A stretch of DNA of 34,562 nt from a virus. The position numbers and the translations under genes are program-made. Below, in pieces: positions 1 to 19,703 of the stretch (the stretch's first letter is position 1; the number at the start of each line of letters is the position of its first letter). The notes under the pieces are model-generated. The model made no database searches. It saw only the letters and a list, made by a program, of their open reading frames with translations, and was not told the origin of the DNA. The stretch lies in IMG/VR virus record IMGVR_UViG_3300043449_000437, positions 1 through 34,562 of that record; one strand, given 5' to 3'.

Positions 1-798
1 CCGCATCCGCTCAGTTGAGTTTGTGCTAACCGCAACCGTATCCGCCGCAGGGCGGAACACGCCAGTATTGGTATCAGCATTAAAGGCATATGCCGGGGCA
101 GCAGCAGTCCCTCCTGTGGAAGTCTTTACATACCGTGTTTCCGAGTCATTAGCATAGTAACTCAGGAAGGTGAACTTACTAGGCGGCACCTCATACTTAA
201 GGCGGACACTAAGACCCGCAGCCCCTACAAATCCAGCAGGAACGCTTTGAACCAACGAACTCCCTTCAATGCCGGTGGAATTAGCCAGCTCATAGAAGTT
301 TCCATTAACAGGAGTAAGAGCCCCAAGAGCTGCTAGATCCAGAACAGGGGCATAGTCAATCAAAGATGAAACAGAATTCAAAGCAATATCTGCCTTATCA
401 TCAGCACTATTTGCGGTAGCAAGAGCCGTGGTAGAGTTAGCAAGAGCAGTTGCTGAATCCGTAATGGATTCCTCCGCTAGGTTTGCTGCTTCTTGGGAAA
501 TAAACAGAACTTGATCAAAGTTATCATTAAGATCAGCTGCCTTAATGGATGACCCAGGAAAGAAGGTAGCTTGAAATGCCGTATCATCAGTAGTACGGTT
601 TAGGACAACCGTAGCACCATTGGCTGGAGCAGTGACAAATTCAATCGTGGTGGCGTTGGCAAACGAATATTGAGTTGTAATGGTCTGAAGAACATCGTTG
701 ACATAAACATCAACGTCCTCAGGGTTTAGGTATTCAAATGAAATGGAGAACAGCTTGTTAGTGCCGTTCCCCGTGTATGTGTTTTTAGTGATTGCCAT
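1..798 (-). CDS. Tail fibre protein, N-terminal part (T7 gp17-like), cut by the window edge
   Basis: The frame starts at an ATG whose A is at 798 and stays open for 266 codons to base 1, so the C-terminal receptor-binding part lies outside the window. The N-terminus (MAITKNTYTGNGTNKLFSIS, then FEYLNPEDVDVYVN and GSSIKAADLNDNFDQ) matches the T7 tail-fibre N-terminal domain, which attaches the fibre to the tail. It is followed by an Ala/Ser/Thr-rich, probably coiled shaft at about residues 115-145. Near the cut edge is TNTGVFRPAADTVAVST, a motif type common in phage fibres and often found before a chaperone or tip domain. It begins three bases after the stop of the large internal virion protein gene, where T7 gene 17 also lies. 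The fibre call is firm; the receptor is unknown. Confidence 0.88.
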   Translation of the reverse strand, partial: MAITKNTYTGNGTNKLFSISFEYLNPEDVDVYVNDVLQTITTQYSFANATTIEFVTAPANGATVVLNRTTDDTAFQATFFPGSSIKAADLNDNFDQVLFISQEAANLAEESITDSATALANSTTALATANSADDKADIALNSVSSLIDYAPVLDLAALGALTPVNGNFYELANSTGIEGSSLVQSVPAGFVGAAGLSVRLKYEVPPSKFTFLSYYANDSETRYVKTSTGGTAAAPAYAFNADTNTGVFRPAADTVAVSTNSTERMR

Positions 799-801
799 TT
801 G

Positions 802-3800
802 TTATGGGTTGCCAAATTTAATCAAATTAGTACCAAGATCTGAAGTTCCACTACTTTGCAAAGCCCTTTCATTGAGAAATTCAGCTTTACGCTTAAGAAA
901 ATCAGGATTAGTGGCTTCTACTTCCTGCTTAGCCGCATTAATATATTGCATAAAAATCTCCTCAGTACGACGTTTGTACCAAGGTTCTACAAGCCTTTCA
1001 CTTGGAGTTAGCGATCCTTCTTTTGTCCGTTGTTCATCAGCTTTAAACTCTTTAGAAGCGAAGTGTTTAGCCAATGCTTGCTCCAATCCATACTTGGCGA
1101 CAAGAGCTTTAATCTGTGCTCGTTCTAGTCCAGTATAAACTTGACCAGTGGAAGCAGTTTTAAAGTTTCCTTTATGCCAAACATTCATCTCCATCAATTT
1201 TTGAGCAACAGGACTCCTGTTCTCTTCCATCATTTCAAATGGAATGTTAGCATTAAAAGGTCCGCCTGTAGACCGCAGCATGGGTTTGCCAGTCAAGATA
1301 TCTGGTTCAAACGGAGCATTCTTACTGATGTCTGGCCAAATTTGAGCCATTGTTTTTTGATAGAACGAATCATATTCCCGATAATATGGATCGCTAGAGT
1401 TTGCCCAAGCCCGGCGAGTTGCAGTATAAGGAAGTAGATTATTAACCGCACCTAAACCCAATCCAGCCATAAGATCAAGGAAGTTATTAGGATTCCCTGG
1501 AATGTTACTCTTCTTACCTGTTAGTTGAGCAAAGGTATCCTGAGGATTAAAAATAACACTTAGTCCATCAAGGTTGGCAAGATAACTCTTTTCGGTGAAT
1601 CCAGCCGTGAAGCCATACAACAAGGTTTCAGCAACTTTATTGAGTTCGTTGATTTCACCATACCTAGACAACATGCCAAGATCAGCCGCCGCCGCAATCC
1701 AGTTAGAAAGTGGTTCAAACCATCCATAAGAAACCCACTTATCACCGATTTTAACGGAACGTGGTTGAATGCCTTGTTGCCTCCACCGTTCCCGTTCATC
1801 TGGATCAAAAGGAATGTTTCCAGTCATCATGCCGCTGGTACCAGCACTATAGCCAAGACTGATAACAAGGGCTCCAACGGATTCCCTACCACGAAGTTCT
1901 GCCAAAGCAAGTTCATCACCAGCTTCCAACGCAGCACGATAACCACCCATAAACTTACCAATCAATGGTGTAAAGGAGGTTTGATATGCCATAATGTTGG
2001 CTGGTGTCCGAATAAACGGCATGATAAATTTGCCAACCGGAATTTTGGCATCAGGACCACCACTTACCAATAGTTCCAATTGCCGGGCAAAATATCCAGG
2101 ATCGTTGGTATAGTTGGTTTCCATACCATACTTTTTAAGAGCTTCGTCTGTGACTTGGCCTGTTTTAGGATCAAAGCCACGCTCTAGTGCTTTAGTAGCC
2201 ATTTCAATATTGGCAGCCAGATTAGTACCACCTTTATCAGCAGCACTCTTAAAGGCTTCCATATTGATCTTTTGACGCACTGCCATGGTTGTGATGAAGT
2301 CATCAGAAGTCATCATCAAACGGCTTGGGATTTCTGTATACTTAATCCAAGCATCTAGCCACCGAAGATGTCCAGCAACCATTTTCTTTGCTGGAGTATC
2401 AGCCGTCATTTCCAAAGCATTTAGATAAGATTGAGTTTCGGCCCTAGAAAGAACCGAAGCCGCACTCCACGATGCTGGTACTTGAGTTTTAAATGTAGTG
2501 GCAGCAACCTGAGCCGCCTCAAGGGACCCCTGAAACAGAGCAGCATATCCAGCTCCAGCAGATGCAATAAGGGTCTCATCTCCTTCAGCCAAACCCCTTA
2601 GCCCAATCATGGTGGGTGTCATCACCAAACGGAACGTACCAGAAAGGTTTCTGATAAAGGTTTTAGGAGCAGAAAGAATGTTGTTATAAAACATTCCCAG
2701 AACACGTTTGCCTGAGTACTTAATAAGAGTTGCTCCATAGTTAATAACTTTAGATGGATCTCCTCCAGCCAAAGTCATTGCCAAATAGAATTGACGAGCT
2801 TCATCTCTGTATTTTGGATCATTAGAGCGAGCAAGATCTTTGACATAATCTGCCCACTTACGCATAACTTCTGCGGAGCTAAAAGTCCTATCTTTGGCCC
2901 CAGGTTCAGATCCTTCAGAAACAACCTCATCGAGAAGCTGATTCCAACGTTTACCAGCAGCAAGTCGTCTTCCAGTTTCCAAAGACCAAGCTTCCTTACG
3001 GAGCATGATAAGTCCAACTGCTTGATCAACAAGACGATCAAAGTGGTTACCATCAGTAATGCCATTAGCTTCAGACATGAGAGCATCTTGGCCAATGTTA
3101 GATGCCTTTTCCCCAAGCCTGCGAATCATTGCTTGAGTAACTCTAAGTGCTGGAATTTTAATTTGTTCCGTTCCCGCTTCACCGATAAAGGTTTGACCTT
3201 CTTCTCGGAAAGCTTTTAGCATAGCTTCGGTCACCTCATTAGGCGACTTGGCTGTGTTAAGAACATCTTCATAAAGTTTAAACGATTCAGCATCCAGAGC
3301 TTTAAGAATTTTTGTAGCATCAGCTTCACCAAAACGGCGATACAGAGCATCAAGTTGATTCTTATTTTGACTGGACTCAAGAGCCTCATCAATTTTAGCT
3401 TTCCAACCACCTGTCATGTTGGCACGTTTGGTGGCTGCATCTGTAATCCAGATACGATTCTGAAGTAAAGATTCTGGTTGTTTACCAATGTCAGCAGCAG
3501 TTTCAATACGTGTATTGGATTTGACACCAGGACCAATGTTATTAACGCCAGAAAGAATGGTGTTATCCATATCTTTCAGTTCATCATTAGCATTGTCTAG
3601 TTGCTTTTTAAGTTCAGCAGCATCTTCCCATGGATTAGCCTGACGTTCTTTAATGTTATCAATTTTGTTGAGAATTTCATCACGACGCAATTGATTGACA
3701 TCATCCCAACGCAGACTTTCCTCTACCTCCTTAACGGATGCGTCTTTTGCCTTTTGATCGAGTTCTTTTTTAAGGGTATCAATAGAATCGTCAATGGCTT

Positions 3801-4890
3801 CAGCAGTGGTTTTCTTTCTCAGGACTCCGTTAATTTTAGAAACAGCATTCTTAGATGTTTGGAAAATATCCAATGCTTTAAATACTGCTCCAGCAGCCTC
3901 AGCTACCTTACCAAGACCCATATCTTCCAAACCAGCAATGATTCGGTAACGAGCCTCACTATCATAATTTGGATCAGCAGTAAGAGCTTTGGGAACAAGA
4001 GGCTTAAGGTTAGGAGGCAAAACCTCTTCCAAACGTGCGCCTAGTGTAGGCCCACCCTTTTCAGAAGTATCCGCATGAATAAAACCTGCGAAGAAATCAA
4101 GACCACCTGACCGGATCAGTTTCTTCAGTTTCCCAGCATCTGGTCCTACTTGTGGGGCAACACGATTAAGAAACCGCATTCCGTTAACCAGCTTAAGGAA
4201 CTCAGCAGCACCAGCCGCCGTAGGATCGTCTGGAGTAAGTCCAAAATCAATTTGAGCCTTAATGTACCTATCGCTGCGAGGATCCTGTTCTGGAGCCACA
4301 GGGCGGCCAATCGCTTCGCCTACACGAGCCATTCCCTCCTGCCCAGCCTTAATCAGTTGGGAACCATAATCCTCAATGATACCAGGACCAGATCCTTTTA
4401 AAACAACCTTAGCAGTTTCAACAAGAGGTTTAAGACTTTTCTTGGTAGGCTCTAAATTCTTTTTAAACTGTTCATTTAGTTTTGCCTTTTCAGCTTTATC
4501 TCCAGAACGCAAACGCCTACGCTTAGCAAGCTCTTGAGTATCCTTGATGCCATAAAGATTTTTATCGACTTGCTCACCCACATCAGCAACAACTTTGTTA
4601 ACTGGAGCAAGAACTTCATCAAGTTTTGCACTGACATCTTTAAGAGGTCGAGCAATAGCTTCTTGAGCAACCTTGGCTGGATTCCAAGTTTGACGATTAC
4701 GTTGAGTACGACCAGCAGCCTTTTCCTTTTCTTTACCCTTTTTAATCTGTCTAGATTTTTGGATGGCCGCTTTAGTTTCTCGATCTAGATTCTCTTGATC
4801 AATTTGTTCTTGAGTTTTACCTGAATTAAGAAGCGGAGTTTGATCGCTAAAATTGTAAGTGGCCTCTGAGGACCAAGGACTACTAGGCAT
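802..4890 (-). CDS. Large internal virion protein (T7 gp16-like)
   Basis: This is a 1362-residue protein, close to the 1318 residues of T7 gp16, and it lies in the same place, just before the tail fibre. In T7, gp16 leaves the virion during infection and helps form the trans-envelope channel that pulls in DNA. The N-terminal 140 residues are very rich in Lys, Glu and Gln. Residues of about 360-440 are strongly charged and look coiled-coil. I see no lytic transglycosylase domain at the N-terminus, unlike T7 gp16; the cell-wall-lytic modules are in the neighbouring 4968..7961 protein instead. The ATG at 4890 follows a 77-base spacer with a stable hairpin. Function is assigned by size and position more than by recognisable motifs. 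Confidence 0.75.
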   Translation of the reverse strand: MPSSPWSSEATYNFSDQTPLLNSGKTQEQIDQENLDRETKAAIQKSRQIKKGKEKEKAAGRTQRNRQTWNPAKVAQEAIARPLKDVSAKLDEVLAPVNKVVADVGEQVDKNLYGIKDTQELAKRRRLRSGDKAEKAKLNEQFKKNLEPTKKSLKPLVETAKVVLKGSGPGIIEDYGSQLIKAGQEGMARVGEAIGRPVAPEQDPRSDRYIKAQIDFGLTPDDPTAAGAAEFLKLVNGMRFLNRVAPQVGPDAGKLKKLIRSGGLDFFAGFIHADTSEKGGPTLGARLEEVLPPNLKPLVPKALTADPNYDSEARYRIIAGLEDMGLGKVAEAAGAVFKALDIFQTSKNAVSKINGVLRKKTTAEAIDDSIDTLKKELDQKAKDASVKEVEESLRWDDVNQLRRDEILNKIDNIKERQANPWEDAAELKKQLDNANDELKDMDNTILSGVNNIGPGVKSNTRIETAADIGKQPESLLQNRIWITDAATKRANMTGGWKAKIDEALESSQNKNQLDALYRRFGEADATKILKALDAESFKLYEDVLNTAKSPNEVTEAMLKAFREEGQTFIGEAGTEQIKIPALRVTQAMIRRLGEKASNIGQDALMSEANGITDGNHFDRLVDQAVGLIMLRKEAWSLETGRRLAAGKRWNQLLDEVVSEGSEPGAKDRTFSSAEVMRKWADYVKDLARSNDPKYRDEARQFYLAMTLAGGDPSKVINYGATLIKYSGKRVLGMFYNNILSAPKTFIRNLSGTFRLVMTPTMIGLRGLAEGDETLIASAGAGYAALFQGSLEAAQVAATTFKTQVPASWSAASVLSRAETQSYLNALEMTADTPAKKMVAGHLRWLDAWIKYTEIPSRLMMTSDDFITTMAVRQKINMEAFKSAADKGGTNLAANIEMATKALERGFDPKTGQVTDEALKKYGMETNYTNDPGYFARQLELLVSGGPDAKIPVGKFIMPFIRTPANIMAYQTSFTPLIGKFMGGYRAALEAGDELALAELRGRESVGALVISLGYSAGTSGMMTGNIPFDPDERERWRQQGIQPRSVKIGDKWVSYGWFEPLSNWIAAAADLGMLSRYGEINELNKVAETLLYGFTAGFTEKSYLANLDGLSVIFNPQDTFAQLTGKKSNIPGNPNNFLDLMAGLGLGAVNNLLPYTATRRAWANSSDPYYREYDSFYQKTMAQIWPDISKNAPFEPDILTGKPMLRSTGGPFNANIPFEMMEENRSPVAQKLMEMNVWHKGNFKTASTGQVYTGLERAQIKALVAKYGLEQALAKHFASKEFKADEQRTKEGSLTPSERLVEPWYKRRTEEIFMQYINAAKQEVEATNPDFLKRKAEFLNERALQSSGTSDLGTNLIKFGNP

Positions 4891-4967: not shown

Positions 4968-7961
4968 TTAATTAAATGAAACGTGAAGATGATCGTCATG
5001 GTTAGGAATTGCTTTGGACCTCGGTCCACCAATCATCTGACCATCACGATAATAACCTTTGCGGTCCCAGTAAATTTCACTGATACCCAATGCCTCAGCA
5101 TTTTTTAGCAGGTAGTCGTAAGTAGAATCCAGCTGAGTAACAGTGTTATGAGACAATGGCAAATCTAAGGCTTGGTTTGAGTTATGGAAAGAACGGTCCC
5201 TAGGTGCAACCCTAGCACCACCACTAACAAACCCTTTGTTAAGATCAAAGTTAGGATGTTGCCAGATTTTAATACCTTTGGCTAGAAGCGTTTTACCAAC
5301 TTCAACCGTGCGGGCTGGCCCTGGCTGTGCTGAAACTTTCGGATCAACAACAGAGGTTTGTTCCAACCTAAGATCACGCAGCATTTTTCCTAATTTAACA
5401 TCAGGAATCTTTTGAGCACCTTGCCATTCAGTTACAAGATCAGCCATTGCTGCTGCCAAATTTTGTGTAGTATCGGGAACTTTACCTGACATATAGTCAT
5501 TAAGTTTAGTCCGCCAAGGCAATGCTCCACCAACAACAAGAGCTTGGAATGCTTTATCTTGGGTAGCTTGGTTAAATGATTGATCAGGTGAAATACCAGC
5601 AGCTTTAATTACGGCCTTAAGCGTTTCCGGCTTAAATTGATAAGCCCCATAATGTATCACTTTTTGACCATTAATTGTAAAGTCGCCACGAATTACATCC
5701 TTTACTTTAAGGTTTGTAATAGCTGGATTACCAGGACCAGAACGTGTTACTCCGAAATTATACTGTCCATAATCTCCACCACTTTCAGTGCGGATGATTT
5801 CTTGTTGCAATGTTGAAAGAGCATTACCAGAAACAACAGGTGTTTGTTGAGACATCTGCCTAGCAGTTTCAAGTGCTTTAATTTGACTCAAAATAGCCCT
5901 TCGATCAGTGGGCGTTAAATCTCCACTTAATTTTTTAGCCAAAGCAGGACTAAGTTGCCTTACAGTTGAAAGGTACTGCTCTTGCGCCGGATTAGGCTTC
6001 CAAGGGGCATAGCCATTATCAACAGCTTGTCTAGCAAGAAAATCATTAGCATTAGCGTAGCCAGCTTGTTTAGCTACATTTGAAATTGAAGTGGGAATTG
6101 GTCCACCTGTATTAACTGCCAATTGAGCAGCATCATACATGTCCCTAGGCACCGTCACTGAAGTAGCGGGAATTACCACTCCAGACATGGCGTTATTAAC
6201 GATGGCGTTAATAGTATCAGTAGGTAACCTAGTGTCAAATGTGGCATTAAGGTTAGGTTTTTGATCAGTTAACTTATCTTTATTGGGAGCCGTCTTTCCC
6301 TGTAAGCTCCAATAAAGTGGGCTTTTTTGATCACTCAAATATTGTTTAGCTAAATTAGCAATTGCTTCAGCATCGGCAGATACATCAGCAGGCTGATTTG
6401 CGTCAATACGGCGTTGAATAACTTCTTGATACTTACTTTGAGCTTGAGCAATAGCTAGATCTCGAACAAGTTTGGCTTCAGCTTTTTGAGTTTCAGGTGT
6501 TACTGATGCTGGTCCCCACCCTTTCTGTTGCCACGCAATAACAGCTAATTCAGCAAGAGGAACACTTAACTTGTAATCATCTTCAACAGTACGCGTACCT
6601 TCAGGCAAACCAGGGATTGCCTTGGCACTGGCAGCCACACTAGAGTCAATTACCTTGGAAGCTTCAAGTTGATCAATCCGGGCTTTTGTAAGTCCGTATT
6701 TACCTCCTATCAACCTTCCGCTGCGAAGACCTTCAAGAATAGCATTTTCAAATGGAGTACTACCGCCTGATATAAGTTTAGTAATATCCTCCTCAGGCAA
6801 TCCAGCCGCCCGTGCTCGTTTGGCTAGATCATCTATTTTTGGTTGCCTTTGCTTTGGAGGCAATTGATCATAAGATTTAGCTTCAAACGTGAACTGTCCA
6901 AGACGTTCCTGAAGAATTTGCTTAATTTTATCAGCACCTGCCTGCTGTGTTTTTCCTTCTAGTTCCGTGTAAAGAGCACTGAAATATTGCCGATAAGTAC
7001 CGGCTTTGCTGGGATGCAGAATATCTCCTGAATTTTGCAAAATAGAGTAGGCTTTATCACTCTGATTATTTGCAAGAAGTCCAGTAATTGTTTCTGTTAA
7101 AGTATCTTTAAAATTATTGTTTTTATCTTTTGTGGGGCTAGGATCATTTCTTTCAATAGTGGCCAGCCCTGTTTCAGCAGAAGCACGATCTGTAATTGTT
7201 AAAAGGATACTTTGTCCTTGAACATTGTTTTTAATCCTGGCTTCTTCTTTGGCATTATCATCCAAAGTTTGACCAAAAGTTTCATTAAGACGAGCCCTAG
7301 CAACAGCAAGATTATTACTACCGTACTCCATCATAATGGATGGATTAATACGGTTGTAACCAGCTTCTTGCCCCCAAAGACCAATAAGAATCTTTTCAGC
7401 ACGGTCCCATTCTGTGCGGGTCATCCGTTGATTAAGTTGAATGATTCCGCCTGTATCAGGATCCTTTAAAGTTCTACCTTCGTTAATTGCTTGATTAACA
7501 TAATTGGTATAAGAAACGGCTGCCCCTTGCGCCATAGCTCGTGAAGCACCGATTGCCTCTAATCCTCTAATTGCTGGAGAAGTTCTTCGGATTTGCGCTG
7601 CCATTCCTTTTTGATCAGGAAGTGTTTCCGCAGCATTGGCAGTAGCAACAGCATTTGCCGCTGCTTTTTCCATTAAAGCTTCTTTTTGTCTAAACTCATT
7701 AGCATCAGCGTCATATGTTATTTCGCCGGTAATGAATTTAGTAAAACCCTTAGCAATGGTTTCATTTTTTATTTCTTCTCCTCTTTTTTTTAGAACACCT
7801 CCAAGCGTTTCACTGAATTGAGCAAGAGCTTCAAGATCGCGTTCTGATTGAGCAAGCATTATCCGCGAAGGATCGTAAGCTTGCACTACTGGAGTAGAAG
7901 ATGTAGATTGAAATCCAGTTAGGTCAACCTGCTGGCCAGGGGATTCATAGATACTAGCCAT
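4968..7961 (-). CDS. Internal virion protein with lysozyme-like and M15-peptidase-like domains (T7 gp15 position)
   Basis: This 997-residue protein sits where T7 gp15 (747 aa) lies, between the gp14-like and gp16-like genes. The first 700 residues are Ala/Gln/Lys-rich and unrecognised. Residues 712-850 look like a muramidase or transglycosylase module: a candidate catalytic Glu726 in IIRTESGGDYGQYNFG, then HYGAYQFKPETL at about 770-781. The last 80 residues have a VanY/M15 zinc-peptidase pattern: His926 and Asp933 in FHNSNQALDLPL, and a terminal HDDHLHVSFN with His991 and His993. Such domains would open the peptidoglycan locally as DNA enters. T7 carries its single transglycosylase on gp16, so the enzyme modules have moved or been gained. 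The domain calls come from motif reading and were not tested by a profile search. Confidence 0.75.
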   Translation of the reverse strand: MASIYESPGQQVDLTGFQSTSSTPVVQAYDPSRIMLAQSERDLEALAQFSETLGGVLKKRGEEIKNETIAKGFTKFITGEITYDADANEFRQKEALMEKAAANAVATANAAETLPDQKGMAAQIRRTSPAIRGLEAIGASRAMAQGAAVSYTNYVNQAINEGRTLKDPDTGGIIQLNQRMTRTEWDRAEKILIGLWGQEAGYNRINPSIMMEYGSNNLAVARARLNETFGQTLDDNAKEEARIKNNVQGQSILLTITDRASAETGLATIERNDPSPTKDKNNNFKDTLTETITGLLANNQSDKAYSILQNSGDILHPSKAGTYRQYFSALYTELEGKTQQAGADKIKQILQERLGQFTFEAKSYDQLPPKQRQPKIDDLAKRARAAGLPEEDITKLISGGSTPFENAILEGLRSGRLIGGKYGLTKARIDQLEASKVIDSSVAASAKAIPGLPEGTRTVEDDYKLSVPLAELAVIAWQQKGWGPASVTPETQKAEAKLVRDLAIAQAQSKYQEVIQRRIDANQPADVSADAEAIANLAKQYLSDQKSPLYWSLQGKTAPNKDKLTDQKPNLNATFDTRLPTDTINAIVNNAMSGVVIPATSVTVPRDMYDAAQLAVNTGGPIPTSISNVAKQAGYANANDFLARQAVDNGYAPWKPNPAQEQYLSTVRQLSPALAKKLSGDLTPTDRRAILSQIKALETARQMSQQTPVVSGNALSTLQQEIIRTESGGDYGQYNFGVTRSGPGNPAITNLKVKDVIRGDFTINGQKVIHYGAYQFKPETLKAVIKAAGISPDQSFNQATQDKAFQALVVGGALPWRTKLNDYMSGKVPDTTQNLAAAMADLVTEWQGAQKIPDVKLGKMLRDLRLEQTSVVDPKVSAQPGPARTVEVGKTLLAKGIKIWQHPNFDLNKGFVSGGARVAPRDRSFHNSNQALDLPLSHNTVTQLDSTYDYLLKNAEALGISEIYWDRKGYYRDGQMIGGPRSKAIPNHDDHLHVSFN

Positions 7962-7967
7962 TTTTTA

Positions 7968-8513
7968 CTAGGTATTTTTATTGAAATCGCCGCCAGCACC
8001 TGTGTAGGCAGTGACACCGGAAAGAGCTGCACCAGCCAATCCAAGCACAAGTCCGCCTGTACTGGGTTTAGCAATGCGTTGAGCCGCTGCTTGATTAATT
8101 TCAGATTTTGCTGCCAAGAAGTTATTCTCCATATTGAAATAAAGATCCTGTTGAGCATAAGCAAGGTTCATACCAAGTGCTCCAAGATCCTTCCCTTCAA
8201 CACGCTCAGCATCGGCTAGAAGGCCTCCTATGGACTGTCCAGTACGTCCGGCAGCCAACGCGGTTCCCTGCGCTTGGAGACGCCTCACAAGGCCCTGCTC
8301 AGCCGCTTGAGACGCCTTTTCCAACTCACCTTTCATCTTAAGCTGAGCTTTTTGATCTTCGGTATTACGTCGTTGTAAAGCCAGATCTCTATTTTGCTGA
8401 TAGGCACGTTGGGAAACAGCCGCAGCTTGACTTGTAGCTTGATAACCAGCAATGGATTGAACGGCACTCATCAAGCCCGTTGCAAGGCCTATGGCAATGG
8501 CGGGATTACACAT
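7968..8513 (-). CDS. Internal core protein (T7 gp14-like)
   Basis: 181 residues, close to the 196 of T7 gp14, and in the same order (gp13-gp14-gp15-gp16). It starts MCNPAIAIGLATGLMSAVQS, a hydrophobic Gly/Ala-rich N-terminus. A long Gln/Ala-rich helical middle (about 30-135) follows, and then a second Gly/Ala-rich stretch (GGLVLGLAGAALSGVTAYTG, about 152-171). In T7 the equivalent protein is ejected and forms a pore in the outer membrane. The ATG at 8513 overlaps the end of the gp13-like gene by 25 bases, so the two are probably translated together. Confidence 0.8.
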   Translation of the reverse strand: MCNPAIAIGLATGLMSAVQSIAGYQATSQAAAVSQRAYQQNRDLALQRRNTEDQKAQLKMKGELEKASQAAEQGLVRRLQAQGTALAAGRTGQSIGGLLADAERVEGKDLGALGMNLAYAQQDLYFNMENNFLAAKSEINQAAAQRIAKPSTGGLVLGLAGAALSGVTAYTGAGGDFNKNT

Positions 8514-8959
8514 TTCGTTAATTTAGCAAATTCAACATAAGTAAGATTGGTTTGAGTGGTAACATACATAAGCTTTTTAAATCCAAGCATATGAAGCAGT
8601 TTCATGTGCATCTTATTTCTTGGATCAGCAATGTTATGTAGCATCTCATAGGAGGTCTGTTGTTCGACCCATTTCTTAGCCTCCTTAAAAAATAGCTTGG
8701 GATACGGACGGACACATGGCGTAGTAAGCATCCATATGGCTCCGCAATGGGCATCGGTTCTGGATACCCCCGCTACCCCGCAGATCTCTCCAAGAGGGTT
8801 CCTGAAGGTTACAGGGTTGTCTGAGAGATCCATAGAAAGGCAGAGGGTTGCTTCCATAATTTTATGGCCAAGACCCTCTAGTTCCCTTCGATCATCTTCT
8901 TGTAGGTGCTGAGCCACCCAGATTGCGTCTGAGCGGCTCGCTGGGTGGATTAGCGACAT
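8489..8959 (-). CDS. Internal virion protein with acetyltransferase-like fold (T7 gp13/DUF2833-like)
   Basis: 156 residues from the ATG at 8959 (MSLIHPASRSDAIWVAQHL). This ATG is 8 bases past the end of the tail tubular B gene, which is why I prefer it to longer upstream starts inside that gene. Size and position match T7 gp13 (138 aa), an internal protein needed for virion assembly. The opening 'HPASRSDAIWVAQ', the GEICGVAGVSR segment at about 68-78 and the 'KLLHMLGFKK' near the C-terminus resemble GNAT acetyltransferases (the last is their 'N/R-x-x-x-x-LGF' end). Similarity of DUF2833 proteins to GNATs is known for the family. Whether this one binds acetyl-CoA is unknown. Confidence 0.7.
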   Translation of the reverse strand: MSLIHPASRSDAIWVAQHLQEDDRRELEGLGHKIMEATLCLSMDLSDNPVTFRNPLGEICGVAGVSRTDAHCGAIWMLTTPCVRPYPKLFFKEAKKWVEQQTSYEMLHNIADPRNKMHMKLLHMLGFKKLMYVTTQTNLTYVEFAKLTKCVIPPLP

Positions 8960-8966
8960 TGTGGGA

Positions 8967-11885
8967 TTACAGTGATTGGATTCCTTTATTATTGTAAGTT
9001 CCTTCCCAATCCAGAGAAGTAAACGAAGTGGGAAAAGGACTATCAACAACAAGGTCAACTTCTACCTGATTTCCCCTGGCCATGATGGGGACCGTACTCT
9101 GAGCGTTACGGATAATAGGAATGTTATTAGCCAAGTAATTATTGGCAGTAATCTGAGGAAGAAGTAGTTCATACTCATTCCTACCAACAGCCCTAGTAAC
9201 CACCTTATATGGACCAGAGTTATAACTATTGATTTTAAGCCTCGTCACAATAGGCACGTTAACCGTATCCTTACTGGCGGAGCTGACATCCTTCACAAAG
9301 TAGAAAGCTGGCAGTGTCGCCCGCGATTCATACTTATAACCAATAGCAAAGTTTGAACTTGTTTGATCTCCCTCTACGGTTAGAAAATATTTTTCCCCAA
9401 CAGGCTTAGTTGCATCATATTGCATCGTTTGCTCTTCAAAATAACCAGCCACATCAGGATCAATAAACATCAAGACAGGCTGCTCATTCATATCCTCAAA
9501 CCCATCCTTAAAGCAGACGTGAGTAAGATCAGCCACTGCGTCATAGGTAAGGGTTGGGTTATAATCAAAGAGATCCAAACGAACGTCAATATACTGCCCT
9601 TCAAACAGCAACGATTGGCTGGGGGTATCCGTCAACAAAGCTACCTTACTAAGAACATAGTTACTACCATGTTTGGTAACAACATACATGATGTCCTGAT
9701 CGAAATCAAAGGTTTCAATTGTTCCAGGAAGGTTCCACTTAAACCATGCTGAAATTCTACCTTGATCACCATTTTGGAACCAACGATAGATGTAAAGAGA
9801 ACTTGGAGTTTCCCTACTATGAGCAGCAACGAGTCCAGCCGTAATGGTTCCCTTCATGTCATAGACGGCAGAAGGAATATACGTTGGAATAAACCGCGTT
9901 AGTTCCACAACGGTAGGACGCCCACCACTGCTGCTACCAATGTCCATATCATAAATGGATGAAGCAGTATCGCCTTCCTCAAGGAATAGGTAGCTAGGAC
10001 CAATATCAACAGGATTGATTCGGTCAGTAGTGTTATAAGAAGACAGTAGGTTAATCTCCGCTGTCTTAGGAGCAAAAGCTTCGGTGGTTGTTTCCAACAC
10101 GTACTGTCCGTTATTCGCAAATAGCAAGAGGCCCCTAGGACACGGCAGCGCACTCTTAAACCTCAGGGGCTTTAGAGATCCAGCACTAAGGTCAATCGGA
10201 TCGCTATCCAGAATAGTGATAACGGTATCAGCAAAGAAGTCAAAATAATCACCTGCTTGTGAGCAGATAACATTTTCACGAGAAGTAAAGATCAGTCGGT
10301 TCTTGAAGAATGAAATAGAATCAACTGGGTTACCAACAAAGGTTGGCATAGGATTTGTGATTTCATCCCCTACCAATCTAGTCTTCCAATACTTCAATCG
10401 AGATTCATCACCTTCCCGAAGTTGACTTGCAACTGTATCAATCCTAAAGGTATCTCCTGCCGTGTTGGTAACGGTGTTGAGAGCTGTATATCCCTGACCT
10501 GCTTGCTGGATGTCAATTGTATCAATAACACCAGTAACCGTCGTAGTGATGGTAATACCCGCCCTAACTTGATTGCTGATAGTTGTGAAGGCTCCATTGA
10601 CGGTATAAACTGTATTACCAATTCTCAATGATGTTACGTTACTGGTACCAATAAGGGCATTATTGACATACCAATAGTACACAGGCCCACTGGTCCTACG
10701 CACGTAGTTGGGCGACGTAGCAGCATAGCTGTTGGTGGTAACTACGGTTTTTGTTTTCCGCACTACCAATCGTAGGTTAGTACCAGATCCACCAATTGCG
10801 GAGAATTGTTCATCAACAACATGACCGCCGCTGGTGGCACTAAGTACTGATACAGCCGTAGGAATACCAGTAATCAGAGAAGTACCAGCACTAGCAATAG
10901 CAGAGGCTTCATCTAGTAACCGATAGGTAAACGTGCCATTAGCTTCCCTGATAATGACATGAGGCATTGTTTCCTCATTAAGTTTAGTAAGCGTACTAGG
11001 AGCAATTGTTTCTTCCCAGTAACCTGTACCAGAACTTGTATTATCAGTAGTCCTAAAGATTACCCAATAGTCATCAGCACCAGTATCATTAGAGCCAGCA
11101 ACTTTAATCTTCAGTCCATTTAAGAATTGCTTTGGTAGTTGAGCAGCTGACGTAACAGTACCCTTAAACGCATCAATCGAAGTACCGGCATTACCACCTC
11201 GCGCTTGAATAGCGAAGTTTGCATTATCAGCTCTTCGGATGTGGATATTATTACCAATAGCAGTTGCTACCCACGAAGCATTAGCATTGATGGTAGTGGT
11301 AAGGTTATCAACAATATCCTTTACGTTAAGCTGGTTTGTGGTTCCAGACGTAACGTTTTCAGGAGTAGTATAAGTGAACTCCGTGCTGTCCAGCCTGACT
11401 GTATAGGTGGACTTATACGCAATGGTATTAATCGAAACAAAAGCATACGGATTAATAGCAGCACTGGTAGTAACACTAGCCGCAACTGTTTTAGTACGAT
11501 TAAGAATAAAGATATAATCGTTGATCTGAAGAACCTGGAGGTCATCCGAGTTATCATGAACAGCATACGATGTTGCCTCAGCCGCAACCGCATTGACAGT
11601 CTGCTGTGCGCCACTGTTAGCACTCCAAATCTTAAGAGCACCAGCCTTACTAAATTGAAGGATGTACTTCTCCTTATCATCCCTAAACACCATAAACCAA
11701 GTGCCGTCACTTGTCGCATTAGCCAATTTACTAATGCCTTGAAGACCAGGACGCTTTGTCAATCCTGAGGCAACATCAGGATAATAGTTATCACATACCC
11801 GAAGTTGACCATTAAATTTAACAGTATCGGGTTGTTGGGAAACACCACCAATGAGGTTTCCAATCTTTTGAGAAACTGCTGCCAT
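8967..11885 (-). CDS. Tail tubular protein B (T7 gp12-like nozzle)
   Basis: This 972-residue protein is longer than T7 gp12 (794 aa). The N-terminus MAAVSQKIGNLIGGVSQQPD, followed by a Tyr/Pro segment ending GLTKRPGLQG, is the hallmark of the T7 gp12 family: 'GGVSQQPD', then 'N...D...GL.KRPG'. In the virion six copies make the nozzle at the tail tip, to which the fibres attach. The middle (about 200-480) is Thr/Asn/Ser-rich beta structure and probably contains the insertion that accounts for the extra length. The ATG overlaps the last base of the tail tubular A gene at 11885, giving tight translational coupling. Confidence 0.9.
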   Translation of the reverse strand: MAAVSQKIGNLIGGVSQQPDTVKFNGQLRVCDNYYPDVASGLTKRPGLQGISKLANATSDGTWFMVFRDDKEKYILQFSKAGALKIWSANSGAQQTVNAVAAEATSYAVHDNSDDLQVLQINDYIFILNRTKTVAASVTTSAAINPYAFVSINTIAYKSTYTVRLDSTEFTYTTPENVTSGTTNQLNVKDIVDNLTTTINANASWVATAIGNNIHIRRADNANFAIQARGGNAGTSIDAFKGTVTSAAQLPKQFLNGLKIKVAGSNDTGADDYWVIFRTTDNTSSGTGYWEETIAPSTLTKLNEETMPHVIIREANGTFTYRLLDEASAIASAGTSLITGIPTAVSVLSATSGGHVVDEQFSAIGGSGTNLRLVVRKTKTVVTTNSYAATSPNYVRRTSGPVYYWYVNNALIGTSNVTSLRIGNTVYTVNGAFTTISNQVRAGITITTTVTGVIDTIDIQQAGQGYTALNTVTNTAGDTFRIDTVASQLREGDESRLKYWKTRLVGDEITNPMPTFVGNPVDSISFFKNRLIFTSRENVICSQAGDYFDFFADTVITILDSDPIDLSAGSLKPLRFKSALPCPRGLLLFANNGQYVLETTTEAFAPKTAEINLLSSYNTTDRINPVDIGPSYLFLEEGDTASSIYDMDIGSSSGGRPTVVELTRFIPTYIPSAVYDMKGTITAGLVAAHSRETPSSLYIYRWFQNGDQGRISAWFKWNLPGTIETFDFDQDIMYVVTKHGSNYVLSKVALLTDTPSQSLLFEGQYIDVRLDLFDYNPTLTYDAVADLTHVCFKDGFEDMNEQPVLMFIDPDVAGYFEEQTMQYDATKPVGEKYFLTVEGDQTSSNFAIGYKYESRATLPAFYFVKDVSSASKDTVNVPIVTRLKINSYNSGPYKVVTRAVGRNEYELLLPQITANNYLANNIPIIRNAQSTVPIMARGNQVEVDLVVDSPFPTSFTSLDWEGTYNNKGIQSL

Positions 11886-17549: not shown

Positions 17550-18273
17550 ATTGTGGAAGATCAGTGTTCGCTGCTTCAAAGAAAGCAGGCATCCTGGCAC
17601 GTTGGGTATCCTTTAGGCCGGGGGCTTTCCCCTTTTCATACAAGGAATCTGATTGAGCCAACCAGAAATCCTTATCAAGATACTTGCTTTCAGATTTACC
17701 AAGCCCATCAACTACCCATCCCACAGTAGCACGACGTAATCGGTTAAGGCTTTGCGTTGATTTAAGTCCAAGCTCGGAGCAGACCATTGAGTGGATGGCG
17801 ACATGCGTTTGCTCATCTCGGCTGATGTCGGCTGCTGTGGTACGGATTCCGATGTCTCCATTGAATCGGAAGAATGGGAGGATGACGAAGAAGACACTGC
17901 GTTCAAGGATAGCGGCTTTCAGGAGTGGATGTTCAGGGGCATCCAGCCACGCCTTAAGAATGTGTTTTGCTTCGGATTCAAACTTTTCATTTGAACCATG
18001 AGCAGCCACTACATAATTAAGGGCTTGATCATGCCTCTCTTCATCCAATTGATTAGACATTAGAGCTTCCCGAACACCAGGGGTATTGGGTAGTTCCTTA
18101 TCGAGCCCCTGTTGTAGGAACTCTCGCACCGGCAATTCAAGATGACGGAGACCAAGGGCACGATAAATCGCATCCTCAGCCCCATCAACGAGTTTCCCCT
18201 TTTGAACAGCAACCGGAGTCCATTTACGTTTACGAGAAATTACCTGATCATAGGGGGAAAGAGTTGCGTTCAT
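17542..18273 (-). CDS. nrdB: Ribonucleotide reductase small (beta) subunit, cyanophage type
   Basis: 243 residues from the ATG at 18273, which overlaps the stop of the large subunit (TAATG). The ferritin-like di-metal ligands fit: Glu46 in 'HLELP', Glu78 and His81 in 'DEERH', Glu124 in 'AILERS', and Glu154 and His157 in 'DEQTH'. It would build the radical that the large subunit uses to reduce ribonucleotides. In ordinary class Ia proteins a tyrosine lies four residues after the first His; here that position is Leu85 (HDQAL), with a Tyr at +6 (Tyr87). The cofactor may therefore be of a tyrosine-independent kind. At 243 residues it is shorter than typical R2 (about 375). The C-terminal 'NTDLPQYG' is a likely docking tail for the large subunit. 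Confidence 0.8.
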   Translation of the reverse strand: MNATLSPYDQVISRKRKWTPVAVQKGKLVDGAEDAIYRALGLRHLELPVREFLQQGLDKELPNTPGVREALMSNQLDEERHDQALNYVVAAHGSNEKFESEAKHILKAWLDAPEHPLLKAAILERSVFFVILPFFRFNGDIGIRTTAADISRDEQTHVAIHSMVCSELGLKSTQSLNRLRRATVGWVVDGLGKSESKYLDKDFWLAQSDSLYEKGKAPGLKDTQRARMPAFFEAANTDLPQYG

Positions 18274-19703
18274 TATTCTCCGCAGGGAATACAAATTTCG
18301 TTTTCTGGTTTAACAGTGGGACAACCACAATCTTCCTCCTCAAAAGAGAAAAGATCTTTAAAGTCATCATCAAGCGCAGCAAGGGCATCATCCTTTGCTT
18401 GAGTGTCGGGCATGACTTGGAGTGCGTAATAAAGGGAGGTTTGAGAGGATGCCATCCAGTCCCTTAGAAATTCACGATCATACGTCACCACATCAGACCA
18501 GCTATTAAAGGAGTAGCCATGAAATAGCATTGTGGATCGGAACAGAGTAACAATCCCATCAACCACCTTACGGTAGTCATGCCACCCTACTTCCGATGCG
18601 ATTTCGCAGTCAGGCGGGTACGCAAATGATTGAACTCCAAACGTCCCAGAATCGCGGTCAACGTGGCGGCTAATAGGAGGAGCCAACTCTGGAGTGGTAG
18701 TGTAGCCCCGAAGATCAATGTTGTTGTAACTACAAGAAGCGGTAGGAGCAATGGCAAAGGCCCTAGACATGCCCGCTTGACGTGCAATTTGAGCGGCAAT
18801 TTCAATCGACTTGGCAAGTTCCGAGACGAGGATATATGCCGGGGTGTGGGCAGGTTGGTGTGAGTGGTAAGCATCTAGGGCTTCTCCAAATTCTTTGTAA
18901 GTTACTTTGTTCTGACATAGGAAGTTAGCCAGCCCAAGAACACCCAGTCCAACCTGCTTATCAATCTCAGGGGAAAGATATTCTCCTGTTTCTCCAACAC
19001 CAGTACGGGCATGGAGATTAACAAGAGAAGTCATTCCTTCTACGAAAGCAGGGGTGAGGTCTTCAAACTTACAAGCACCCAGATTGACGTGCTGAAGTAA
19101 ACAAGTACCACGGCTAGGAAGATAAACTTCAAGGCAGACATTTCCATAAATACGATTACCTTCCGCGTCGTAGCGAATCTTATTAAGCCAAATATCACCC
19201 TTTTTAATACCATCAAGGGTGGCTTCAATCAACTCAGGAGAAGCATTTGTGAGAAAGCCGGGGTCCACGTTAAGACAACGCTTTACCCAAGATAGCTCAG
19301 TACGGCTAGCCTTGATGAATTCAATAGCATCAGGATGGGTGTAATCAAGATGGCACACAACAGCACCATTCTTATAGACACCACCCCTGCGAAGAGTCTC
19401 GTTTAAGACGGAGTAGATCTTGGCGAATGACACAGGGCCTGACGCCATGAGTCCTCTTCCATTCTCGCTGCCTCGTTCACGGAGTTTAGAAAGGTGTACA
19501 GCGACTCCAGCTCCGTTGCGGAGAGCGTGTGAGACGAACCTCCAAGAGGCTTCAATTCCTTCTGGTCCCTCCATGCTGTCCTCAACAACGAAGACGGTAC
19601 AGGAGACGGGCAGGCGGGACTCAGGGTTGTCGATCCAGTTTTGAACACGTCCGGTACGGGCAATGGTGTTTGGGGTGTCTCCAAGGTCAGCGAAGGCAGT
19701 CAT
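18273..19703 (-). CDS. nrdA: Ribonucleotide reductase large (alpha) subunit, short cyanophage type
   Basis: 476 residues, much shorter than bacterial R1 (about 750) and without the N-terminal ATP cone. Visible active-site parts are Cys35 (RLPVSC), the N-x-C-x-E set Asn188/Cys190/Glu192 (GNVCLEV), the second redox Cys211 (HVNLGAC) and the swinging-arm pair Cys471/Cys474 (ICIPC) at the C-terminus; two further cysteines are at 459 and 461. 'PTASCSYNNIDLRGY' is the usual substrate-phosphate region. A Tyr425-Tyr426 pair (SLYYALQV) matches the radical-transfer tyrosines of class I R1, and a beta-subunit gene follows at once. This supports class I, although short phage RNRs like this were long annotated as class II. 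It makes deoxynucleotides for phage DNA synthesis. Confidence 0.85.
   Translation of the reverse strand: MTAFADLGDTPNTIARTGRVQNWIDNPESRLPVSCTVFVVEDSMEGPEGIEASWRFVSHALRNGAGVAVHLSKLRERGSENGRGLMASGPVSFAKIYSVLNETLRRGGVYKNGAVVCHLDYTHPDAIEFIKASRTELSWVKRCLNVDPGFLTNASPELIEATLDGIKKGDIWLNKIRYDAEGNRIYGNVCLEVYLPSRGTCLLQHVNLGACKFEDLTPAFVEGMTSLVNLHARTGVGETGEYLSPEIDKQVGLGVLGLANFLCQNKVTYKEFGEALDAYHSHQPAHTPAYILVSELAKSIEIAAQIARQAGMSRAFAIAPTASCSYNNIDLRGYTTTPELAPPISRHVDRDSGTFGVQSFAYPPDCEIASEVGWHDYRKVVDGIVTLFRSTMLFHGYSFNSWSDVVTYDREFLRDWMASSQTSLYYALQVMPDTQAKDDALAALDDDFKDLFSFEEEDCGCPTVKPENEICIPCGE

Follow-up and report, generated by a model that had tools for sequence, protein, structure and literature searches.

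The analysed window, 34,562 nucleotides of viral DNA (positions 1 to 34,562 of IMG/VR record IMGVR_UViG_3300043449_000437, a linear fragment that consists of the window alone), encodes a 997-residue protein at the position of T7 gp15, and the C-terminal third of this protein carries two different predicted peptidoglycan hydrolase domains, a lysozyme-superfamily domain of the lambda lysozyme type and a zinc peptidase of the MT3/VldE type. Most probably, the two domains form a virion-associated wall-breaching module on an ejection protein that is used in genome entry. The open reading frame (window 4968-7961) is open on the minus strand only, and the plus-strand frame is full of stops. An earlier note made from the sequence alone had claimed this reading frame and had proposed two different hydrolase domains on a gp15-position protein; both claims held, and the profile comparisons (hhalign) gave matches to the two domains far above those of shuffled decoys.

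Two predicted hydrolase domains in the C-terminal third

Searches with the intact protein returned nothing usable from Pfam, NCBIfam or PHROGs. Neither C-terminal domain was matched in Pfam or NCBIfam, and for 13 C-terminal relatives Pfam yielded chance matches only. Because Pfam also misses the region of mycobacteriophage TM4 that has a known hydrolase motif, we attribute this silence to a gap in the libraries. When the C-terminus as a whole was searched as a profile in the PDB, a spurious Pup/tag match came up.

By tblastn, the glycosidase region matched tail proteins of cyanophages and other phages (4e-7 to 1e-3 for the better matches), including p045 of S-SRP02, proteins from the tail loci of many T4-like cyanophages, and proteins of ACP17/V45v66. 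S-SRP02 is a cultured freshwater Synechococcus phage, and its p045 occupies the gp15 position as well. The hhalign probabilities were 98.2% to S-SRP02, 97.7% to a cyanomyovirus set and 95.5% to metagenomic loci L050-L052, and those of column-shuffled decoys were 2.8% or lower. An AlphaFold2 (AF2) model and a profile were built on a 44-sequence alignment. The model of the glycosidase domain alone (predicted local distance difference test score, pLDDT, 89.8; predicted template modelling score, pTM, 0.84) retrieved leech destabilase (an i-type lysozyme), lambda lysozyme and the baseplate protein of cyanophage A-1(L) as the leading PDB matches by Foldseek, and the top six matches were all lysozymes or the A-1(L) baseplate protein. 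The direct links to lambda lysozyme were weak in Foldseek (1am7; probability 0.66, E 0.21) and in hmmsearch with the 44-sequence profile (E 0.047), and hhalign reached it at 86.8% solely through the cyanomyovirus profile. In the model, E726 ends the first helix. But for a gap shift of one column, it takes the position of E19 in lambda lysozyme; furthermore, E726, G772-A-Y774-Q775 and Q801-D802 correspond to E19, GRYQ and QD of lambda R. Residues ~712-860 are predicted to be a lysozyme-superfamily domain of the lambda lysozyme type (GH104-like), with muramidase or transglycosylase activity. This agrees with the glycan-cutting module that the earlier note had placed at residues 712-850, and the domain differs from the SLT domain of T7. 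Phage_lysozyme2 identity was discarded because hhalign gave 0.1% with the Syn5 group, and T7 SLT, SP6 Phage_lysozyme and phiKMV gp36C gave no match. Given that the fold matches are remote only and that we found none of the cyanophage glycosidase family to be biochemically characterised, the domain might be a lysozyme-fold wall binder or a cutter of capsule or S-layer glycan, which would leave the peptidase alone to act on the wall; however, the catalytic-acid motif and the GxYQ and QD motifs are strictly conserved and common to lambda lysozyme, and we regard this alternative as very improbable.

By tblastn, the peptidase region matched an open reading frame of cyanomyovirus S-B64 that lies in its baseplate region and has no annotation (4e-11). 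Tape-measure proteins from mycobacteriophages, Muddy and TM4 among them, were matched as well, the better ones at 7e-5 to 1e-2. In hhalign, the peptidase region reached 97% with a set from mycobacteriophages and Gordonia phages and 92% with pneumococcal VldE, compared with a shuffled maximum of 31%. The C-terminal domain of VldE (9flk and 9flh) took Foldseek ranks 1 and 2 (probabilities of 1.00 and 0.99, E-values of 0.017 and 0.087) with a model of mean pLDDT 70. The MT3 domain of VldE is a clan MD L-Ala-D-Glu endopeptidase in which H301, D308, H375, H370, D372 and H373 are all essential (PMC11667670). In the window protein, H926, D933, H991 and H993 are present at the numbering given in the earlier note. 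H926, D933 and H993 align with the zinc ligands of TM4 and VldE and are invariant in 11 proteins, and H988, D990 and H991 match the essential H370, D372 and H373 of VldE. The peptidase is predicted to belong to the MT3/VldE family of clan MD and to cut L-Ala-D-Glu, and is not predicted to be a VanY D,D-carboxypeptidase. The earlier assignment to VanY/M15 was thus right for the clan and wrong for the family; the Pfam M15/VanY models had no match at E<=1 in the 997-residue protein or in the 13 C-terminal relatives. An M23 domain, also considered, is not there in the window protein and is present in the sister clade only. Close cellular kin of the MT3 domain were not found in 84,980 species genomes with exact peptide patterns, which miss distant kin. 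For TM4 gp17 (L079), the RefSeq label 'endolysin' on a tape-measure protein masks the tail-lysin relationship.

Ten IMG/VR loci encode full-length relatives of the 997-residue protein with 44-94% identity. E726, the GAYQF motif, S924, H926, D933, W965, H988, D989, H991 and H993 are invariant in all 11 proteins (the window and these ten), and two further loci, L033 and L034, align only up to residue 865, so that they keep the glycosidase-like domain and have another terminal domain. In a comparison of the window with its relative at 94% identity, the ratio of nonsynonymous to synonymous substitution rates (dN/dS) was lowest in the peptidase domain (0.016), against 0.088 in the body and 0.115 in the glycosidase domain, which indicates that both domains are under purifying selection, the peptidase most. 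These results argue against the idea that one or both domains are catalytically dead and only bind peptidoglycan or shape the tip of a tunnel, since the window clade keeps E726 and all zinc ligands without variation and dN/dS of the MT3 domain is so low. Such loss does appear to be tolerated in this slot, as M23-like domains with replaced zinc ligands occur in L033/L034, S-CBP4 and S-CBP2, and D990 varies to T among relatives; nonetheless, we consider lost catalysis in the window protein unlikely.

The gp15 position and a probable role in genome entry

The genes run in the order nozzle, gp13, gp14, 997-residue protein, gp16-like protein and T7-type tail fibre (Table 1), so that the gene lies between the gp14-family and gp16-like genes, downstream of the nozzle gene. 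Residues 1-666 align with residues 1-675 of the gp15-position family of S-CBP42, Syn5, SS120-1 and S-TIP28, whose members belong to phrog_19560 ('virion structural protein'); past this junction (~666), the C-termini of the window protein and of the S-CBP42/Syn5 family are unrelated. Homology to T7 gp15 was not detected (hhalign 0.1%), and profile comparison did not detect a relation of the body to phiKMV gp36 or SP6 gp36. Assignments of gp15 across phage groups are generally based on size and synteny (PMC8954989). Judged by sequence and gene order, the 997-residue protein is the gp15-position protein of its own group and not a T7 gp15 homologue.

Table 1. Coordinates of the 997-residue protein, its domains and residues, and the neighbouring genes in the window
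Feature	Position	Strand	Evidence
gp15-position internal virion (predicted ejection) protein, 997 amino acids	4968..7961	-	synteny: between gp14-family and gp16-like genes; body homology to S-CBP42/Syn5
N-terminal body, residues 1-700, presumed tunnel/core part	5862..7961	-	hhalign 98.4% over residues 1-666
Predicted lysozyme-superfamily (lambda-lysozyme-like) domain, residues ~712-860	5382..5828	-	tblastn, hhalign, AF2 pLDDT 89.8, Foldseek, profile
E726, putative catalytic acid	5784..5786	-	invariant in 13 relatives; corresponds to lambda lysozyme E19
Predicted MT3/VldE-type clan MD zinc peptidase domain, residues ~880-997	4971..5324	-	tblastn, Foldseek, hhalign
H926, predicted zinc ligand (VldE H301)	5184..5186	-	alignment; PMC11667670
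D933, predicted zinc ligand (VldE D308)	5163..5165	-	alignment; PMC11667670
W965, counterpart of conserved W in TM4 mt3	5067..5069	-	alignment; PMC1796659
H988-x-x-H991-x-H993, predicted catalytic histidines and third zinc ligand (VldE H370, H373, H375)	4983..5000	-	alignment; PMC11667670
Tail fibre, N-terminal part, runs off contig	1..798	-	Pfam Phage_T7_tail 2e-21
gp16-like internal virion protein, 1362 amino acids, hydrolase domain not found	802..4890	-	phrog_6651 E 2e-86
gp14-family internal virion protein, 181 amino acids	7968..8513	-	Pfam T7_gp14 1.2e-13
gp13-position protein	8489..9058	-	phrog_308
Nozzle/tail tubular protein B (gp12)	8967..11885	-	Pfam Phage_nozzle 1e-180

The gp16-like neighbour had been thought to carry no enzyme, and a transglycosylase was looked for in it and not found. 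No hydrolase family, SLT included, was found at E<=1 in the eight members of the gp16-like family scanned, while the positive control, T7 gp16, scored SLT at 1.7e-31 in the same library; in addition, hhalign gave 0.3% between the gp16-like protein and the N-terminal transglycosylase region of T7 gp16. The further idea that the enzyme load has been rearranged relative to a T7 norm fared less well, since gp15-position lysozymes are known in SP6/K1-5 and phiKMV and neither window protein could be aligned to T7 gp15 or gp16 by hhalign.

The RNA polymerase of the window is closest to those of cyanophages SS120-1, S-CBP42, S-CBP2, Syn5 and P60 (42-46%), and the gp16-like protein is likewise nearest to cyanopodoviruses, which makes a cyanobacterial host likely. 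The virus is probably a T7-like cyanopodovirus. Upstream of the structural genes, the window also encodes a ribonucleotide reductase barrel-domain protein of only 476 amino acids (18273-19703, minus strand).

In the proposed mechanism, the ~700-residue body would contribute to the internal core and, if T7 gp15 is a guide, to the trans-periplasmic tunnel too. During infection the whole protein would exit the capsid, again as in T7 (PMC8954989), and its C-terminal third would deliver two complementary peptidoglycan hydrolases with the ejectosome, so that the enzymes reach the wall. There, the lambda-lysozyme-type domain would cut the glycan strand with E726 as the acid, and the MT3/VldE-type zinc peptidase would cut the stem peptide, most likely at L-Ala-D-Glu. 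Joint cleavage should release wall fragments better than one enzyme, and the local hole would let the tunnel cross the wall; the benefit would be greatest with a thick or highly cross-linked wall.

Five points weigh against this mechanism. The Foldseek E-values of the glycosidase are individually weak (best 0.16); the loop of H926, the first zinc ligand, has a pLDDT below 50 in the AF2 peptidase model; several relatives have T in place of D990, the counterpart of the essential VldE D372; a link to T7 gp15 by sequence was not found, so that the tunnel role stands on synteny; and the contig stops in the tail fibre, which places the window's own lysis genes outside the visible sequence. In another interpretation, the protein would be an endolysin that acts at the end of infection, or would serve both entry and lysis, as proposed for ORF45 of S-SRP02. 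S-SRP02 is without another lysozyme, its authors assign ORF45 to lysis (PMC8790148), and ORF45 is a gp15-position protein with the window-type glycosidase domain. However, the window protein has 997 residues, a structural body and a location in the ejection cluster, and SP6 and phiKMV each own a separate endolysin besides their gp15-position lysozyme. Moreover, the 94%-identical relative has a gene for a C39-like cysteine peptidase (L036:15334-15894; Pfam 2.6e-10) downstream of its tail-fibre genes; the product of this gene, which lies beyond the window, is a candidate for an enzyme of lysis or of the tail. Because the closest relative has this separate candidate, a lysis role is less likely, and we give the endolysin interpretation little credence compared with a module for genome entry.

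In the literature, ORF45 of S-SRP02 (L016:6577-9483) is described as a lysis gene that encodes an N-acetylmuramoyl-L-alanine amidase (PMC8790148); its position and domain suggest a gp15-position ejection protein with a lambda-lysozyme-like C-terminus.

An exchangeable hydrolase slot

We surveyed the gp15 position in T7-like cyanobacterial phages and in their relatives from metagenomes. The window clade carries the lambda-type glycosidase with MT3, L033 and L034 carry the window-type glycosidase with an M23 domain (Pfam 2e-8), and L050-L057 and S-SRP02 carry the window-type glycosidase alone. Among the other phages, isolate S-CBP4 has a goose-lysozyme-like domain (E 0.009) with an M23-like domain; S-CBP2 has an M23-like domain inside its gp15-position protein, and a glycosidase was not recognised in it; S-CBP1 and DSL-LC07 have a GH73 glucosaminidase; Syn5 has a weak tail-lysozyme match; and in P-SSP7 a hydrolase was not detected. 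P-SSP7 gp15 (L015:5320-7833) is unlike most other examined cyanopodovirus gp15-position proteins in this respect, and a W-x-K-I-P-N-x-I-G-Y-[YF]-V-like motif occurs twice in its C-terminus.

The zinc ligands of the M23-like domains are replaced (Q-P-G-x-D for H-x-G-x-D and S-[IV]-D-F for H-L-H-F), and these domains may for this reason not be classical peptidases. The degeneracy is conserved in three separate lineages with fold-level motifs kept (L033:7614-8072 and L034; L156, S-CBP4; L157, S-CBP2). An M23 reading of the S-CBP1 and DSL-LC07 tails, which have a GID motif, was rejected (hhalign 0.1% against the M23 domain of L033).

In a tree of gp16, the lineages with MT3, with M23 and with only the glycosidase (metagenomic) are each monophyletic with full support, and the MT3 and M23 lineages are sisters; S-SRP02 lies on a very long branch and its placement is unsure. 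Both domain types of the window also occur together in the tail locus of S-RIM8, where MT3 precedes the glycosidase within one protein, the reverse of the window order, and in adjacent genes of S-SZBM1. The S-RIM8 protein (L077:1267-3873) bears the annotation 'endolysin'. As far as domain content and phylogeny tell, cyanobacterial podoviruses have an exchangeable hydrolase slot at the C-terminus of their gp15-position protein. A bolder and more doubtful possibility is that the glycosidase and peptidase pairs in this slot are swapped with T4-like cyanophage tails and adapted to the wall chemistry of the host, and that the MT3 member acts as an L,D-endopeptidase on which DNA entry into slow-growing cells depends.

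Comparison with known systems

The gp15 position is already known to carry a lysozyme in SP6 (gp36), K1-5 and phiKMV (gp36) (PMC8954989, PMC5380687), so a relocation from gp16 to the gp15 position is not new. What is new here is the enzyme pair on the gp15-position protein and the modular slot; in the literature searched, which covered few subscription papers, we found no description of such a pair on the ejection protein of a podovirus, of the MT3 identity or of the exchange pattern. SP6 gp36, K1-5 gp35 and phiKMV gp36 resemble the window protein in that their genes are flanked by the gp14- and gp16-like genes and their C-termini bear a hydrolase, but they have one catalytic domain and no peptidase (in SP6, Phage_lysozyme, Pfam 6.6e-10), and no sequence link to the window body or glycosidase is detectable. 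T7 gp16, with its N-terminal lytic transglycosylase, is likewise a wall-cutting enzyme ejected with the ejectosome, whereas its single enzyme is of the SLT family and sits on gp16 instead of gp15.

Virion lysins of phages that infect Gram-negative bacteria are described as single-domain enzymes, and two catalytic domains as a Gram-positive trait tied to thick walls (PMC9863714). Two-domain cyanophage endolysins are an exception that has been attributed to thicker, more cross-linked walls (PMC8310338), and a thick cyanobacterial wall is a plausible reason for the two predicted enzymes of the window. In phi29 gp13, lysozyme-like and endopeptidase domains also share one virion protein (PMC9863714); by description rather than by sequence, this protein belongs to the tail knob of a Gram-positive podovirus and not to an internal core. 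S-CBP4 AGK86641, at the gp15 position, shares the C-terminal arrangement of a glycosidase-like and a peptidase-fold domain, but the former is goose-lysozyme-like and the latter is M23-like with replaced zinc ligands. The S-RIM8 protein YP_007518108 and S-SZBM1 gp67/gp66 combine both window domain types in one protein or in neighbouring genes; they differ in that MT3 comes first, on another structural body and in a contractile-tailed phage.

The TM4 gp17 mt3 motif and pneumococcal VldE have the homologous peptidase domain, with the zinc ligands, the extra His and the conserved Trp kept, though on a siphophage tape measure and on a host enzyme, not on a podovirus ejection protein. TM4 mt3 aids DNA injection into stationary cells (PMC1796659). 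The two-enzyme pair is now placed on a predicted ejected core protein of a podovirus, and its peptidase is tied both to TM4 mt3, with its tested role in DNA injection, and to VldE, with its structurally defined active site. An old question is if the enzyme load of the ejectosome follows wall chemistry or growth state, and two named active sites make it directly testable by point mutation.

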